This document shows, one piece after another, positions 16,242 to 23,273 of a DNA stretch of 64,000 bases; within the stretch, counting starts at the first letter, position 1, and every line of letters begins with the position of its first letter. The stretch is taken from positions 124,001 through 188,000 of the forward strand of contig JAIQGI010000003.1 in the NCBI GenBank assembly GCA_020072565.1, read 5' to 3'. A program made the position numbers and the translations under genes. This stretch comes from Terriglobia bacterium (GTDB lineage Bacteria; Acidobacteriota; UBA6911). Under the pieces are notes generated by a model. It searched no databases. It saw only the letters and a program-made list of their open reading frames with translations, and was not told where the DNA came from.

Positions 16242-17087
16242 TTAAGAGCTTCCCCGGAGCTTTTGGGCGAAGGTAGCGGCGCTAGCAAACTCGTCCGCGA
16301 GGTCACCCACTTGCAGCTTCCGGCGAAGCTGCTGCAGGTGGTTGATGATGGATTGCAGGGCGAGGTCGATATTGTCCTGGTTGGTATCGAGGACCGCCCT
16401 CCACACGGAATAAGGACTGATGGCAAGGCGGGTCATGTCCCGCAGTCCGCTTCCGGCTGTCTCGATCGGCTGTTGTTGACAGACGTTCGCGAGAGCAGTG
16501 GAAAGAAGCTGAGGCAAGTGGCTCAGCCAGGCGAGCGTGCGGTCATGCTTGTCCGGTGCCATAATCAGCGGGCGGGCGCCCAGTTGTTCGACCAACCGTC
16601 GGAGCCTTGCCAGATTTTCGGCACGCACGTCCGCCGGCGGGCACAGGACGTAGGGAGCGTTGTGGAAGAGCGTCGGAAGGCTGTTTTCCACGCCAGCGAT
16701 TTCCCTCCCCGCGATCGGGTGGCCGCCGATGAACTGCACCGACTGCGGGAGACGGCTCCATGCTTTGCGGCAGATCCGGAGTTTGGTGCTGCCGACGTCG
16801 GTCACGACCGTGCCCGGGCCCAGATGGTCGCCCAACACGTCAAGCGCCTGCAGGATGTGCTCCACGGGCGACGCCAGAATTACCAGATCCCGATCTTCCA
16901 GCGAACCGGTAAGGTCGGTGGTGAAGCTATCGACGGCACCGAGGTGCCGTGCCCTCTCGAGACGCAGCGAATCGCGCCCCACCCCGCGGATGTCGACATG
17001 CGGAGCGGCTTGCTTCAGAGCTATCCCCAGAGATCCGCCGATCAAACCAACCCCTACGATAGCGACTCTTTCGAAAACATCGGACAT
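16242..17087 (-). CDS. tyrA: Prephenate/arogenate dehydrogenase
   Basis: Oxidative decarboxylation of prephenate (or arogenate) on the way to tyrosine. 281 residues: N-terminal NAD(P) Rossmann fold with GVGLIGGSLG (about 10-19), GVGRDSLRLERA, FIGGHPIAGREIAGVENS with the conserved GGHP motif, then the helical dimerisation domain. There is no fused chorismate mutase or ACT domain. ATG 17087 has GAGG five bases upstream; the TTG five codons earlier is less likely. It follows trpA by 85 bp and closes the trp operon, tying tyrosine to tryptophan synthesis. Confidence 0.92.
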   Translation of the reverse strand: MSDVFERVAIVGVGLIGGSLGIALKQAAPHVDIRGVGRDSLRLERARHLGAVDSFTTDLTGSLEDRDLVILASPVEHILQALDVLGDHLGPGTVVTDVGSTKLRICRKAWSRLPQSVQFIGGHPIAGREIAGVENSLPTLFHNAPYVLCPPADVRAENLARLRRLVEQLGARPLIMAPDKHDRTLAWLSHLPQLLSTALANVCQQQPIETAGSGLRDMTRLAISPYSVWRAVLDTNQDNIDLALQSIINHLQQLRRKLQVGDLADEFASAATFAQKLRGSS

Positions 17088-17172
17088 GGTGGCCTCGTTC
17101 AAAAACGAAACGCGAAAAACTCCAGCGCCATAAGGAAAGCCAGAATAGGCTTCATTGAGGTCTACCTGTTCT

Positions 17173-17994
17173 TCATGGGTCTCGTTGGATGGTACGGCCG
17201 ACGGCAGGGGCGATCAACCAGCGGCAGAAGGCACCCACCTGCGCCGGAAGATCGGGTGCGCCCGCGTTTTTCTCCACCTGGGCCACGATTGCGCTGCCGA
17301 CCACGGCGCCATCGGCTACCTCCCACACCGCCTGGACTTGCTCTGGCCGCGAGATGCCGAAACCGACGGCGACAGGAAGCTGAGTCCGCTCGCGCACACG
17401 GGCCAGCGTAGGGAGGATGGAATCTGAAAGCGCATCCCGGGCACCAGTCACGCCCGCACGTGATACCACATAGACAAACCCGCGGCAGCTGTCGACAATC
17501 CGGCCGATCCTCCTCGGACCGCTGGTGGGAGCGACCAGGAAGATTGGATCGAGCTCATGGCGGCCGAGGCAGGCACAGTAGTCATCCCCTTCCTCGGGCG
17601 TGATGTCGGTCACCAGGACCCCGTCCACCCCTGCGGCGCGGGCGTCGCGCGCCAGGTTTTCCAGGCCATACTGGAGGATCGGATTGAAGTAGCTGAACAA
17701 TACCAGCGGCAGGCCGGTCTGCCGCCGGATCGTCCCGACAGCTTCAAGATAATCAGCAAGCCGGTAGCCGTGGCGCAGGGCCCGCTCGGACGAGCGCTGA
17801 ATGGTAGGGCCATCGGCGACCGGATCGGAGAACGGAATCCCCAGTTCCACGATGTGCGCGCCGGCGCGCTCGAGTTCGGGAACCAGCCCGATCGTGGTCT
17901 CGAGGTCCGGATCGCCTGCCGTAATGAACGGAATGAACGCCTTCCGTCCCCCCTGCTTCAGTTGCTCAAAGGTTCTTGCTATCGCGCGACCCAT
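17173..17994 (-). CDS. trpA: Tryptophan synthase alpha subunit
   Basis: Cleaves indole-3-glycerol phosphate to indole and glyceraldehyde-3-phosphate, in complex with TrpB. 273 residues, TIM barrel: FIPFITAGDPDLETT, VELGIPFSDPVADGPTIQRS (catalytic Glu/Asp region), VLVTDITPEEGDDY, FVYVVSRAGVTGAR and VAVGFGISRPEQV are all present. Separated from trpB by about 90 bp that holds a dispersed palindrome. Part of the trp operon. Confidence 0.96.
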   Translation of the reverse strand: MGRAIARTFEQLKQGGRKAFIPFITAGDPDLETTIGLVPELERAGAHIVELGIPFSDPVADGPTIQRSSERALRHGYRLADYLEAVGTIRRQTGLPLVLFSYFNPILQYGLENLARDARAAGVDGVLVTDITPEEGDDYCACLGRHELDPIFLVAPTSGPRRIGRIVDSCRGFVYVVSRAGVTGARDALSDSILPTLARVRERTQLPVAVGFGISRPEQVQAVWEVADGAVVGSAIVAQVEKNAGAPDLPAQVGAFCRWLIAPAVGRTIQRDP

Positions 17995-18087: not shown

Positions 18088-19329
18088 TCACACCGATGGG
18101 AACACCGGCCTGTCCCCTTGTGGTCTGCCTAATATCTCGGACACTTCGTTGACATCTTTATCTCCACGCCCCGAGATGTTGATCATGACCAGAGCGTCCC
18201 GATCCAGCCGGGGTGCGGTGCGGACCAGCTCGGCCACTGCATGTGCGCTCTCCAACGCCGGGATGATGCCCTCGAGCCGGCTCAGCAGCTGGAAGGCCTC
18301 CAGCGCTTCCCGGTCGGAGACCGACGTGTACTCGACGCGCCCCTGATCGTGCAGGAACGAGTGCTCGGGTCCCACCGCCGGATAATCCAGGCCTGCGGAA
18401 ACCGAATGGGTGCCTGCAATCTGGCCGTTGTCGTCCTGCAGCACGAAGCTCAATGTCCCCTGAAGTACTCCCTTTTTGCCACCCGAAAAACGGGCGGCGT
18501 GTTCCCCCAGGGCGCCTCCGCGCCCGCCTGCTTCCACGCCGATCATGCGGACAGCCGAGTCGCCAAGAAACTCGTGGAAGAAGCCGATGGCGTTGCTCCC
18601 GCCGCCGACGCAGGCGATCAGGAGATCCGGCAGCCGTTTCTCGCGCTCGAGGATCTGGGCGCGCGCCTCCCGGCCGATCACCGATTGAAACTCGCGCACC
18701 ATCCATGGATAGGGATGGGCTCCCAGAACGGAGCCGAGAAGGTAGTGAGTGTGGGCGACGTTGGTCACCCAGTCGCGCATCGCTTCGTTGATGGCATCCT
18801 TCAGGGTCCGGCTGCCGGCATCCACGGGCGTGACCTTGGCACCCAGCAGCTGCATGCGGAAGACGTTCAGCGCTTGGCGGCGCATGTCGTCGGTTCCCAT
18901 GTAGATTTCGCACTCCATTCCGAAAAGCGCGGCCGCAGTCGCAGTGGCGACTCCATGCTGGCCCGCGCCGGTTTCGGCGATGATGCGCTTCTTGCCCATG
19001 CGCCGCGCCAGCAGGATCTGCCCAAGGGCATTGTTGATCTTGTGTGCGCCGGTGTGGTTCAGATCCTCACGCTTGAGATAGACCAGGCAGCGACCCAGGT
19101 GGCTTGCCAGCCGGCAGGCGCGGGTCAACGACGTCGGCCGGCCCGAATAGTCACGCAGCAGGCCGTCCAGCTCGGCTTGAAAAGTGGGATCCAGACGTGC
19201 CTGCCGGAAGGCCGCCTCCAGTTCCAGGAGGGGTTCCATCAGGGTCTCGGGAACAAATCTGCCGCCGTACGGGCCGAAGTGCCCGCGTTGATCGGGCAGC
19301 GGCAATGATTCGGAGTTACCTGGTTGCAT
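18088..19329 (-). CDS. trpB: Tryptophan synthase beta subunit
   Basis: PLP enzyme joining indole and serine to tryptophan. 413 residues, usual length: [17 protein letters not shown] at the N-end, [19 protein letters not shown] with the PLP Lys (HTGAHK), [27 protein letters not shown] (phosphate loop), and a C-terminal [11 protein letters not shown] 19329 overlaps the 3' end of trpF by 14 bases. It is the TrpB1 type that works with TrpA. Confidence 0.97.
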
Positions 19330-19984
19330 CAAAGACCTCGTTCATGAATGCAGTCAGACGCGCAGCGTCCTTTTTCCCCGGGCGGCTTTCGACGCTGCTG
19401 CAGACGTCCAATCCGTAAGGCTGCACGATGCGGATGGCTTCGGCCACGTTGGCCGCGCTCAGCCCGCCTGCCAAAATAATGCGCAGCCCCTCAACCGGAC
19501 CGCGTGCCAGCGTCCAATCGAAGGATTTGCCCGTCCCACCGAAGCGGCGTTCATCCCTCGAGTCCAGGAGGAATGCCTGCGCGGGGAATTCGCGCAGGTT
19601 CTCCAGGACCGTGGCCTTGCCGACGCGCACGGCCTTGATCAGGGGCCAGGCACCGAGCCGGCGGCAGTAGTCGGCCGATTCGTCGCCGTGCAGCTGCAAA
19701 GCCTGCACGCCGGCTACCCGGGCACTCTCGTCCACATCGGCCGGGTCGGCGACGTTGACGAACACGCCTACCGTTGTGGCAAGCGGCGGCAGGCGGCAAA
19801 TGATGTCGCGCGCCGCGAAAAAGTCGATGAAGCGCGGGCTGGGCGGATAAAAGTTGAATCCGAGGGCGTCAGCCCCCAGATCGAGCGCCAGAGCCGCGTC
19901 CTGGTAACTCGTGATTCCGCAAACCTTCACCCTCACTCTCATTGGTGCGACTGTCAGGCTGCGCTGTGATTCGCCGTTTTTCAT
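19316..19984 (-). CDS. trpF: Phosphoribosylanthranilate isomerase
   Basis: Third committed step of the tryptophan branch. Up to 222 residues; conserved VKVCGIT (about 20-26, catalytic Cys), [41 protein letters not shown], and [14 protein letters not shown]. Starts ATG 19984 just after trpC, or ATG 19942 (MRVRVKVCG); the second gives the usual family length, neither has a strong ribosome site. Free-standing, not fused to TrpC. Confidence 0.95.
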
Positions 19985-19987
19985 CTG

Positions 19988-20818
19988 CTACGCCATTTCC
20001 ATTGACAATATCAACTCCTCGAGCGCCGCGCCGGGTGACGGGGCGCGCATCAGGGCTGCGCCAATGAGGAAGCCGCGATAACCAGACCCGGCCAGGAGAC
20101 GTATGTCTTCGGCCGTGCGTATGCCGCTCTCGGCCACCGCGACTGCTTCGCGAGGCAGGCGGACAGCCAGTCGCCGGCACACGTCGAGCGAGACCTCAAA
20201 GTTCTTCAGATTGCGGCTGTTCACACCGATCAGGGTGGCTCCCGCCTCAAGGGCACGATCCAACTCCTGCTCGGTGTGTACCTCGACAAGAGCGTCCATG
20301 CCCAGTTCCTCGACGCAGCCGCGCATCGCCCTGAGAGAGGGCCCTGCCAGGAGGGCAGCAATCAGAAGCACGGCGTCGGCGCCGGCGTGGCGTGCTTCGA
20401 GGACCTGATAGGGATCGACGACAAAATCTTTGCGAAGCAGGGGCAAATCCATGCGCCAGCGCAGTCCGGCAAGGATTTCAAGCCCGCCCTGAAAAAATCT
20501 GTTTTCGGTCACGACCGAGATTGCCGAGGCGCCCGCCTTGCGGTATTGATCCGCGATTGCGGCGGGATCGAAATCAGGCCGCAACAGTCCGCACGAAGGA
20601 GAGGCTTTCTTGATTTCAGCGATAATGCCCGGCCGCCTCATCAGAGCCCGCTTGAGCGAACGGATCTGGGGCCCGCGCTCGAGGGCCATCCGGAGCGATT
20701 CCGCGGGAAGCTTGATTTTTGCGCTCTCGACCTCAGGCAGCCGGGCGGCCATGATCTGTTCCAGAATCGTCTCTTTGAGTTCTGCCGGCAGGCTGTATTT
20801 CGCGGCGATGGTCGTCAT
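19988..20818 (-). CDS. trpC: Indole-3-glycerol phosphate synthase
   Basis: Ring closure to indole-3-glycerol phosphate. 276 residues, TIM barrel: IIAEIKKASPSCGLLRPDFD (catalytic Lys), AISVVTENRFFQG, LRKDFVVDPYQVLEAR, ALVEVHTEQELDRAL, IGVNSRNLKNFEV, VAESGIRTAED. The ATG overlaps the trpG stop as ATGA, so it is coupled directly to trpG. The usual intervening trpD is absent. Confidence 0.96.
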   Translation of the reverse strand: MTTIAAKYSLPAELKETILEQIMAARLPEVESAKIKLPAESLRMALERGPQIRSLKRALMRRPGIIAEIKKASPSCGLLRPDFDPAAIADQYRKAGASAISVVTENRFFQGGLEILAGLRWRMDLPLLRKDFVVDPYQVLEARHAGADAVLLIAALLAGPSLRAMRGCVEELGMDALVEVHTEQELDRALEAGATLIGVNSRNLKNFEVSLDVCRRLAVRLPREAVAVAESGIRTAEDIRLLAGSGYRGFLIGAALMRAPSPGAALEELILSMEMA

Positions 20819-21441
20819 GGTTGGTCACCCGATTCATGAGTTTTCAGCCGGCCGGGATCCGCTGCACCGCGCAATTGCGCCAGAGACAGGAAGTTTCCCA
20901 GCAGTTTCATGCCCTCTTCCGTGAGGATCGATTCCGGATGAAACTGAACCCCCTCGACTGCCGACACTCGATGCCGCAATCCCATGATAACGTCATCCGC
21001 CGTCCGCGCCGAAATTTCGAGGCAGCCGGGCAGGCATTCGTTGGCAACGATGAGGGAATGATAGCGCGTGGCGTGAAACGGGTTTGCCAGACCGGTGAAG
21101 ATCGTCCGCCCATCATGAAAAATCTCGCTGGTCTTGCCGTGCATGAGGGTGGGCGCCGGCACCACCTTCCCTCCAAAGGCAACTCCCAATGCCTGGAGGC
21201 CGAGACAAACGCCCAGGATCGGGATCCGTCCGCAGAACCTGCGGATTACCTCCACGATGATGCCGGAGTTTTCAGGACGGCCCGGCCCTGGGGAAATGAC
21301 GATGGCAGCCGGGGCAAGGAGCTCAATCTGAGCCGGGGTAACGGCATCGTTGCGCGCGACCTTCAACTCCTGCCCCAGTTCGCCCAGATACTGGACCAGG
21401 TTGAATGTGAAAGAGTCGTAATTGTCGATGACGAGAATCAT
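20815..21441 (-). CDS. trpG: Anthranilate synthase glutamine amidotransferase subunit
   Basis: Supplies ammonia from glutamine to TrpE. 208 residues: starts MILVIDNYDSFTFNLVQYLG, nucleophile Cys in GVCLGLQALG, VISPGPGRPENSG, MHGKTSEIFHDG, and the His/Glu pair in GVQFHPES. No fused TrpD domain. ATG 21441 chosen because upstream residues do not belong to the family. The 82-bp gap after trpE holds a perfect palindrome CGGGCTGAAGCCCG (21453-21466). Could also serve PabB (folate), as many TrpG/PabA proteins do. Confidence 0.94.
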   Translation of the reverse strand: MILVIDNYDSFTFNLVQYLGELGQELKVARNDAVTPAQIELLAPAAIVISPGPGRPENSGIIVEVIRRFCGRIPILGVCLGLQALGVAFGGKVVPAPTLMHGKTSEIFHDGRTIFTGLANPFHATRYHSLIVANECLPGCLEISARTADDVIMGLRHRVSAVEGVQFHPESILTEEGMKLLGNFLSLAQLRGAADPGRLKTHESGDQP

Positions 21442-21523
21442 AAGTATCCGTACGGGCTGAAGCCCGCACCCACCTGCATCCATCCGGCGGGGATCGGATG
21501 TGTCCTGCCCCCCGTACCGCACA

Positions 21524-23002
21524 TCAGCGTAATCCCTGGTGCGCGAAATCGACAGCGCGCAAGAGCGCGCGGGCCTTGTTCATGGATTCTTCCCGCTCGC
21601 GTTCCGGCTGGGAATCGGCGACAATACCGCCGCCCGCCTGGATGTAGGCCATGCCATCCTTGATTACCAGAGTCCGCAGGGCAATGCACGTGTCGAGGTT
21701 GCCGGAAAAGTCGGCATAGCCCACCGCACCGCCGTAGACGCCTCTGCGGCACGGTTCCATTTCCTCGATGATTTCCATGGCGCGCACTTTGGGAGCGCCT
21801 GAAACGGTGCCCGCGGGGAGGCAGGCCTCCAGCGCATGGAAGCAGTCCATCTCGTCCCGGAGGGTGCCCTCGACGCTGCTGACGAGGTGCATGACGTGGC
21901 TGTACCTCTCAATGCGCATCAGGTCGGTGACTTTCACGCTGCCGTAATTGCAGACCCGTCCCAGGTCGTTGCGCCCCAGATCCACCAGCATCACATGTTC
22001 GGCGCGCTCTTTGGCATCGGCGAGGAGTTCGCGGGCCAGCTGCTCGTCCTCCTCCGGCGTCGCACCCCGGGGCCGTGTGCCTGCAATCGGCCCGTACTCC
22101 ACGCGCCGGCCCCGCACTTTGACGAGCATCTCGGGCGAGGCCCCTACCAAGCTGAGCTTGTCCATGCGCAGAAAGATCATGTATGGAGACGGATTGATAA
22201 AGCGCAGTGCCCTGTAAATGTCGAAAGGATCACACGCGATCTTCATCGCCAGGCGCTGCGACAGCACTACCTGGAATATGTCGCCGGCCGTGATATAGGA
22301 CTTTGCTTTTTCGACATTGGCGTGGTACTGGGCTTCCGTGAGATTGGAGACCGGCTCCGGGATCGAAGCGCTCGGCGCAGGAGCCGGGAGTGAGATGGGT
22401 GCCGTGAGGCGCTTCTCGATCTGATCGATGCGCAAAAGCGCATCATGATACCTGGCTTCCAGATTCCGGGTTCCGCGCGGATTCAGGATGTTGGCGATAA
22501 TGTGAATCCGATGCCGGAGGTGGTCAAACGCCAGAATGGTCGAGAAATACATCACATAAAAATCATCCAGGCCGAGATCATCCACTGCCAGGGTGGGGAG
22601 CCTTTCAAATTGCCGCACGAGATCATAGCCGAAATAGCCGACCCCGCCCGCCATGAACGGGGGCAGGTCCGCCATCGGCACCGACTGGTACTTGCGTGAG
22701 ATCTCGCGCATTTTGTCGTACGGCCTTCCTTCTTCGGTGCTGACCTCGCCGAGTTCTTCCGTTATGAGGACCCTGCCCTTGCCGCGGATGATCAGAAACG
22801 GGTCCCAGCCGATGAAGGAATACCTCGCCAGGCGCTCGCCCCCTTCGACGCTTTCCAGAAGGAATACCCGGCTCCTCCCCTGCGCGACCCGCAAGAAGGC
22901 CGCGGCCGGTGTCAGCAGGTCGCCCAGGATGTCCTTGTGCACCGGAATCACGCTCCCCTGCCGGGCGAGTCCTTCGATCTCCGCAAGCGACGGATGAATC
23001 AT
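21524..23002 (-). CDS. trpE: Anthranilate synthase component I
   Basis: Makes anthranilate from chorismate. 492 residues. The N-domain carries the LLES tryptophan-inhibition signature (FLLESVEGGERLARYSFIG). The catalytic half has SYMIF-like PSPYMIFLRMDKL, GASPEMLVKV, IAGTRPRG, GTVSGAPKVRAMEII and QAGGGIVADS, all typical. ATG 23002 has GGAAAGGG upstream; an earlier in-frame TTG lies inside the attenuator and is rejected. First structural gene of the operon, 63 bp after the leader terminator. Confidence 0.96.
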   Translation of the reverse strand: MIHPSLAEIEGLARQGSVIPVHKDILGDLLTPAAAFLRVAQGRSRVFLLESVEGGERLARYSFIGWDPFLIIRGKGRVLITEELGEVSTEEGRPYDKMREISRKYQSVPMADLPPFMAGGVGYFGYDLVRQFERLPTLAVDDLGLDDFYVMYFSTILAFDHLRHRIHIIANILNPRGTRNLEARYHDALLRIDQIEKRLTAPISLPAPAPSASIPEPVSNLTEAQYHANVEKAKSYITAGDIFQVVLSQRLAMKIACDPFDIYRALRFINPSPYMIFLRMDKLSLVGASPEMLVKVRGRRVEYGPIAGTRPRGATPEEDEQLARELLADAKERAEHVMLVDLGRNDLGRVCNYGSVKVTDLMRIERYSHVMHLVSSVEGTLRDEMDCFHALEACLPAGTVSGAPKVRAMEIIEEMEPCRRGVYGGAVGYADFSGNLDTCIALRTLVIKDGMAYIQAGGGIVADSQPEREREESMNKARALLRAVDFAHQGLR

Positions 23003-23064: not shown

Positions 23065-23101
23065 ACAAAAAAGCCGTGAACCTTTCGGCTGTTCACGGCT
23101 T
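23065..23101 (-). terminator. Intrinsic terminator in the trp leader (attenuator)
   Basis: Minus strand: AAGCCGTGAAC (23101-23091), nine-base loop, GTTCACGGCTT (23081-23071), followed by a run of six U residues (23072-23067, the first two being the end of the stem). The 11-bp perfect stem lies upstream of trpE and downstream of the leader peptide. Confidence 0.88.
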
Positions 23102-23156
23102 CCCCTCACTCTTCCTAATGCAGCGGGCGTATCAGGAGACTGTCAGCGAACAGACC
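23087..23156 (-). promoter_or_regulatory. Candidate antiterminator of the trp attenuator
   Basis: Leader RNA GGUCUGUUCGC (23156-23146, inside the end of the leader peptide frame) can pair with GUGAACAGCC (23096-23087), with one bulged U. The second segment includes GUGAAC of the terminator's 5' arm, so the two structures exclude each other. Distances from the Trp codons and the leader stop fit ribosome-mediated attenuation. Confidence 0.6.
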
Positions 23157-23218
23157 AGGGGGCATGCGGCCACCCCGCGCCAGTACCAGTAATCGTATCC
23201 CTGAAACGTCCTGATCAT
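23132..23218 (-). CDS. trpL: trp operon leader peptide with Tyr/Trp cluster
   Basis: 28 residues starting MIRTFQGYDYWYWRGV. The run G-Y-D-Y-W-Y-W places three Tyr and two Trp codons within seven codons (Trp at codons 11 and 13, bases 23188-23180). ATAAGG lies nine bases before ATG 23218. The stop at 23132 is 30 bp from the terminator stem. Stalling at the Trp codons would leave the antiterminator segment (23156-23146) free; finishing translation would cover it. The Tyr codons may add a response to tyrosyl-tRNA, which would suit the tyrA gene at the operon end. Too short for homology evidence; the call rests on position, codons and RNA structure. Confidence 0.75.
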   Translation of the reverse strand: MIRTFQGYDYWYWRGVAACPLVCSLTVS

Positions 23219-23243
23219 CGTCGTGTGCCTTATTGAAATCTTA

Positions 23244-23273
23244 TTTCTATCACAAGCAGCCCGCTCTCGACAA
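23244..23273 (-). promoter_or_regulatory. Candidate trp operon promoter
   Basis: Minus strand TTGTCG (23273-23268), 18 bases, TAGAAA (23249-23244), 26 bp before the leader peptide ATG. Only a moderate match to sigma-70. Confidence 0.35.

Follow-up and report, generated by a model that had tools for sequence, protein, structure and literature searches.

A very probable tryptophan attenuator with interleaved tyrosine codons ahead of a trp-tyrA operon in Acidobacteriota

The trp-tyrA operon of a soil acidobacterium is, in all likelihood, preceded by a ribosome-mediated transcription attenuator. Its elements lie on the minus strand at 23273–23065 of the window (the whole 64,000-nucleotide stretch of DNA analyzed here), ahead of trpE. 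The attenuator is conserved and very probably Trp-responsive, with Trp starvation as the condition to which it would respond. An attenuator of the enterobacterial type, the logic proposed in a preliminary description of this DNA, is strongly supported by the conserved design, by the covariation of both helices, and by stall modeling. The leader also contains three Tyr codons, and their possible connection with tyrA in the same operon is weighed below.

Anatomy of the leader and its operon

The operon has the gene order trpE-G-C-F-B-A-tyrA, and each gene has an NCBIfam match. Gaps between genes range from -17 to 93 nt (70 nt between trpA and tyrA), and the trpD of this genome is located outside the operon, on contig C2. 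The genes are as follows:

21524–23002, minus strand: trpE (TIGR00564, above cut-off), with its ATG start at 23002
20815–21447, minus strand: trpG (TIGR00566, above cut-off)
19988–20818, minus strand: trpC (NF001377, above cut-off)
19316–19984, minus strand: trpF (slightly under the cut-off of its best model)
18088–19332, minus strand: trpB (TIGR00263, above cut-off)
17173–17994, minus strand: trpA (TIGR00262, above cut-off)
16242–17102, minus strand: tyrA-like prephenate dehydrogenase, last in the cluster (prephenate dehydrogenase models, E about 1e-57, under equivalog cut-offs)

Because the last of these matches falls under the equivalog cut-offs, the name tyrA rests on family membership. 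Upstream of trpE, the leader region comprises these features:

23268–23273, minus strand: -35-like TTGTCG of the leader promoter, read from the sequence (TTGC at that place in most relatives)
23244–23252, minus strand: putative extended -10-like element, TGATAGAAA (TG at 23252–23251, TAGAAA at 23249–23244)
23132–23218, minus strand: leader peptide ORF, MIRTFQGYDYWYWRGVAACPLVCSLTVS and stop, 28 codons from ATG to TGA
23189–23197, minus strand: Tyr8 and Tyr10, flanking Asp9, as candidate control codons within the permissive stall window
23180–23188, minus strand: control codons Trp11 (23188–23186), Tyr12 (23185–23183), and Trp13 (23182–23180); antitermination is predicted with the A site here
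23146–23156, minus strand: 5′ arm of the antiterminator (region 2), GGTCTGTTCGC, inside the leader ORF and immediately ahead of the stop; covarying helix
23087–23096, minus strand: 3′ arm of the antiterminator (region 3), GTGAACAGCC, sharing sequence with the 5′ arm and loop of the terminator; covarying helix
23067–23101, minus strand: intrinsic terminator with an 11-bp stem and U-run, AAGCCGTGAAC-AGCCGAAAG-GTTCACGGCTT followed by a T-run; covarying

The structural claims of the preliminary description were recovered here: the 28-codon frame with Tyr-Asp-Tyr-Trp-Tyr-Trp is exactly the ORF at 23218–23132, with residues Y8 D9 Y10 W11 Y12 W13 encoded at 23197–23180; the 11-bp terminator with its U-run ahead of trpE lies at 23101–23067; and the alternative pairing that excludes it, between GGTCTGTTCGC (23156–23146) and GTGAACAGCC (23096–23087), amounts to 10 bp with one bulged T and covaries in relatives. 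The ribosome-binding site of the leader is weak. A strict consensus promoter scan of the window did not call the -35-like TTGTCG at 23268–23273. Most relatives have TGTGGTAGAAAT or near variants at a spacing to the leader ATG similar to that of the -10-like site in the window. The terminator was not called by a simple terminator scan of the window, probably because the loop limit of that scan is 8 nt and the loop here has 9 nt.

Transcription would begin a short way ahead of the leader ORF, whose 28 codons a ribosome would then translate. When charged tRNA-Trp is short, the ribosome would stall at codons 11–13, leaving region 2 (the last codons of the ORF) free to pair with region 3; the terminator would then be blocked, and RNA polymerase would continue into trpEGCFBA-tyrA. 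A ribosome reaching the stop codon would cover region 2, the 3:4 terminator would form, and transcription would end near 23067.

For the 1:2 hairpin of the leaders, RNAalifold gave only weak pairs (44–46/78–80 and 56–58/67–69). The Phe-Gln-Gly codons TTTCAGGG (23206–23198) can pair with the stop-codon region (about 23138–23129); their partner is CCCTGAAAC in genomes G004 and G005 (9 bp), and G001 and G007 have a similar complementarity. By its sequence, this pairing is a possible extra helix around the control codons.

Conservation, covariation, and stall modeling

Whole-genome searches covered 15 genomes in the family of the window genome (f1) and 38 in the class. A leader and terminator precede trpE in 11 of 11 other f1 members with readable upstream DNA, and also precede a second trpE in G005. 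The family leaders (n = 13) comprise an aligned set of 12 from 11 genomes and the leader of G010, which is parted from trpE by an apparent group II intron. Leader position and length (26–29 aa) are kept in the 12 f1 leaders other than that of the window, and the Trp codons occur at a fixed position in 13 of 13; the cluster reads W-x-W or W-x-W-W in 12, and FCSW in the remaining one. Within the 12 aligned leaders, the W-x-W cluster falls within codons 9–16, and the distance from the stop codon to the end of the U-run is 60–69 nt. A covariance model built from the f1 leaders gave strong matches (E below 1e-20) only ahead of trpE, and weaker matches (E 2e-10 to 9e-8), likewise ahead of trpE, in family f8, which was outside the training set and whose trpE leaders read W[HR]WWY. 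The trpE leaders of families f5 and f9 read FFW. Neither the window nor other leaders matched a relevant family in Rfam scans, the leader-peptide and T-box families included; the four window matches at E ≤ 10 were all far under gathering cut-offs and were taken as chance. Since nothing matched at gathering score, membership in an Rfam sequence family is not claimed.

Three further observations concern individual loci. The second trpE of G005 (L123, G005:C27) lacks an adjacent trpG but has a complete leader of its own (FQGNYWYW); this orphan may be a paralogue or may come from a contaminating contig. In G010 (C103), the apparent group II intron lies directly after the trp leader terminator and shows the beginning of a reverse transcriptase-like ORF, and the 3′ end of the same intron also precedes aroF in G008 (C31), at the expected site of a Tyr leader; such introns may target attenuator terminators. 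Lastly, the trpB-trpA interval of the G004 operon contains an Acido-Lenti-1 RNA (RF01687; L035 15239–15284, minus strand), encoded on the strand opposite to the operon.

Both competing folds covary, a property that the preliminary description proposed to check by aligning the region ahead of trpE in relatives. When all column pairs of the 12 leaders were searched for helices without guidance, the terminator ranked top and the helix 67–72/139–144 was the next non-overlapping one. The terminator is 94.7% paired (16 columns, 12 sequences), with a covariation of 0.255 versus 0.08–0.14 in slid controls. The antiterminator (columns 67–78 with 134–144 of alignment A1) is 89.3% paired and includes four pairs with two-sided changes, and its covariation is 0.342 versus 0.03–0.11 in slid controls. 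Among the most divergent leaders, some show much stronger pairing with their own partner than with those of other leaders (G003: -21.6 kcal/mol versus a mean of -12.2 kcal/mol); duplex energies of individual leaders were rejected as sole proof, being too weak.

It is extremely unlikely that the element is the plain terminator of another transcription unit beside an accidental Trp-rich ORF. Intergenic terminators are common, and the 10-bp antiterminator of the window sequence, taken alone, is only modestly above chance (13 of 200 shuffles were equally good), its support being comparative, from covariation in relatives. However, the spacing, the Trp codons, and the covarying antiterminator are kept in 12 leaders, and when the 330 nt ahead of trpE were dinucleotide-shuffled 2000 times, a short W.?W ORF with a terminator (perfect stem of at least 8 bp) behind it never arose, single features occurring in 0.25% (terminators) and 8% (W.?W ORFs) of the same shuffles. 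Furthermore, the lpxC-like neighbor upstream (23553, plus strand) is divergent from the trp operon, and thus no transcription unit evidently ends on the minus strand here.

In the stall model, the ribosome was placed at each codon in turn and only the free RNA 3′ of it was folded; the footprint was assumed to extend 13 nt, counted from the first nucleotide of the codon in the A site. In silico, the antiterminator of the window leader forms with the A site at codons up to about 17, has weakened by codon 20, and no longer forms from codon 21 through the stop, in agreement with the earlier proposal that the stop and Trp codons are spaced for a choice between stalled and finishing ribosomes. The other 11 aligned leaders behave similarly in the scan, with early-codon dips mainly in G013, G008, and G005b.

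The leader might instead act as a peptide, through nascent-chain arrest (like TnaC) or in trans (like peTrpL of Sinorhizobium), and not through codon-limited stalling. The Arg found after the last Trp of the cluster in 13 of 13 f1 leaders would fit such a role, and leader peptides able to act in trans are on record (PMC7298713). Yet the peptide sequence after the Trp cluster shows little conservation, in contrast to the covarying RNA pairing encoded there, and in genus g3 the residues ahead of the cluster vary freely; we regard a peptide function as very unlikely.

Tyrosine codons and tyrA in the trp operon

The three Tyr codons of the window leader may also make the switch respond to Tyr shortage, matching the tyrA in the operon, a reading to which we give close to an even chance. 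Among the genomes of the class searched, tyrA was found in the trp operon only in the window genome (G000), G004, G005, and G017. The G005 operon is trpEGCFBA-tyrA, that of G004 is trpEGCFBA-chorismate mutase-aroF-tyrA, and that of G017, from family f4, is trpE-G-D-C-F-B-A-chorismate mutase-aroF-tyrA, joined across two contigs by a 43-base overlap. For the 12 operons of known layout in f1 and f4, Tyr is present in the stall window in four of four with tyrA versus none of eight without it (Fisher 0.002 by leaders, which are not phylogenetically independent). Counted among codons 2–17, there are 3, 4, 1, and 2 Tyr codons in G000, G004, G005, and G017, respectively, and none in the eight tyrA-less f1 operons; as a share of window codons, Tyr makes up 10 of 64 with tyrA versus 0 of 128 in the tyrA-less relatives. 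The count excludes G001 because its contig ends at trpA; the only tyrA found in that genome is of the other type. In the phylogenetic tree, genus g3 is one clade and the branching of g1, g2, and g4 is not settled, and with this resolution the independent events are few: at least the contrast within f1 and the f4 genome.

Stall modeling places the Tyr codons where they could act: a ribosome halted at Tyr8, Tyr10, or Tyr12 of the window leader is nearly as effective as one halted at Trp11 or Trp13, and in G017 the permissive window (codons 10–15) holds exactly Y10-W11-Y12-W13.

The attenuator might equally well sense Trp only, with the Tyr codons incidental and drifting around the Trp pair, and with tyrA simply on the shared transcript; the chance of this, too, we put just short of even. 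Codon conservation across f1 is limited to Trp, so that of the two kinds of codon whose conservation the preliminary description proposed to check, the Trp codons are conserved (13 of 13 f1 leaders) and the Tyr codons are not: the leader of G001, from the same genus as the window genome, reads IWCWRR, and the g3 leaders have no Tyr within the stall window. A strict claim that the Tyr codons are conserved was rejected on these grounds. The middle codon of the Trp cluster drifts among Tyr, Cys, His, and Arg in relatives, and Cys codons occur in more f1 leaders than Tyr codons do, without a known Cys gene in the operon. Moreover, the trpE leaders of families f7 (MAIFSF[LF]RYGWR) and f11 (MKINSSYWRN) have one Tyr each and no tyrA was detected with them, on which a strict class-wide rule of Tyr only with tyrA was also rejected. 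Codons that are present and unsensed have a precedent, as summarized in PMC11802643. Against a Trp-only switch stand the coincidence of Tyr codons with an operon tyrA in four, partly related, genomes of two families, and the Tyr-rich leaders at the other aroF-tyrA locus of f1. The joint sensing of Trp and Tyr suggested in the preliminary description is thus only partly supported, with Tyr codons in all four tyrA-bearing trp operons and none in G001 or in the stall window of g3; a trp-tyrA leader with Trp and Tyr codons as a two-input variant is plausible but unproven.

Other aromatic leaders and known systems

Leader peptides rich in aromatic codons also occur at other loci of the class. A separate aroF-tyrA locus in f1, whose tyrA is longer (about 380 aa), is preceded in about nine f1 genomes by a conserved Tyr/Phe-rich leader of its own, followed by a hairpin or terminator-like structure (e.g., MNNRFYSYYYYGSYQTDP in G013 and MSRCYCRYYYRGSRDRSP in G000), an apparent tyrosine attenuator as judged from sequence. 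Between trpA and chorismate mutase-aroF, family f9 has a Phe/Tyr/Trp leader (NFY[LF]FYWW or LYFFYWW) with a strong terminator, and the equivalent leader of family f7 has Phe and Tyr (FYYFF). These leaders are located as follows:

About 8400–8710 of L147 (G000:C2): aroF-tyrA leader of the window genome (related loci L132–L140 and L146)
6166–6255 of L159, minus strand, and 2562–2651 of L160, plus strand: f9 leader NFY[LF]FYWWHK (also L168–L171)
6642–6713 of L158: f7 leader FYYFF (also L177)

Given these leaders at f1 aroF-tyrA and at f9 and f7 chorismate mutase-aroF, aromatic leader peptides look like a general device in the class, with codon content broadly tracking gene content. Tentatively, and with somewhat less than an even chance, composite sensing of Trp and Tyr at trp-tyrA may form part of a class-wide code that matches leader codons to downstream genes: Trp for trp, Trp and Tyr with tyrA, Phe and Tyr (and Trp) for chorismate mutase-aroF, and Tyr/Phe-rich codons for aroF-tyrA, with codons appearing or disappearing as the operon acquired or shed genes.

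Outside the class of the window genome, four f12 genomes (L116, L032, L149, L150) have Tyr beside tandem Trp (YYWW, YSWW, YWWY) about 80–130 nt before trpE, with no visible terminator at these trpE leaders, and in two of these genomes the contig extends far enough to include aroF, which in both belongs to the trp operon; these leaders possibly exert translational control. Other W-rich ORFs without a terminator upstream of trpE in other classes were discarded, as they mostly resemble pieces of other frames.

The window leader resembles E. coli trpL in its tandem or near-tandem Trp codons, its terminator before trpE, its competing antiterminator, and the logic of stalled versus finishing ribosomes. 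It differs in leader length (26–29 aa in the family, versus 14 in E. coli), in its interleaved Tyr codons, in ending the operon with tyrA, and in having no Rfam-detectable sequence similarity; furthermore, region 2 follows the leader stop codon in E. coli trpL, whereas here it is part of the leader ORF and precedes the stop. Single leaders with codons for several of the amino acids served by the operon are known from the enterobacterial ilvGMEDA and thr operons, in which the codons are branched-chain or Thr/Ile and not aromatic as here.

The aroR leader of Corynebacterium glutamicum (Phe-Tyr-Phe), which controls aroF, is Phe-responsive but insensitive to Tyr; this work and that on trpL of the same species (Neshat et al., 2014) are described here as summarized in PMC11802643. 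By that summary, aroR likewise regulates aromatic genes through ribosome-mediated attenuation and mixes aromatic codons within one leader, but it combines Phe and Tyr ahead of a DAHP synthase operon, in contrast to Trp and Tyr ahead of trp-tyrA. Within the literature covered by our search, no trp, aromatic, or other amino-acid leader peptide was reported for Acidobacteriota, and according to a genome-wide survey, hardly any of the attenuators predicted in Acidobacteriota had a known function (PMC2965389).

The present results extend to Acidobacteriota the classic ribosome-mediated mode of attenuating genes for aromatic amino acids. The related leaders, which gain or lose Tyr codons along with tyrA, constitute a natural series in which the integration of two amino acid signals is directly testable.
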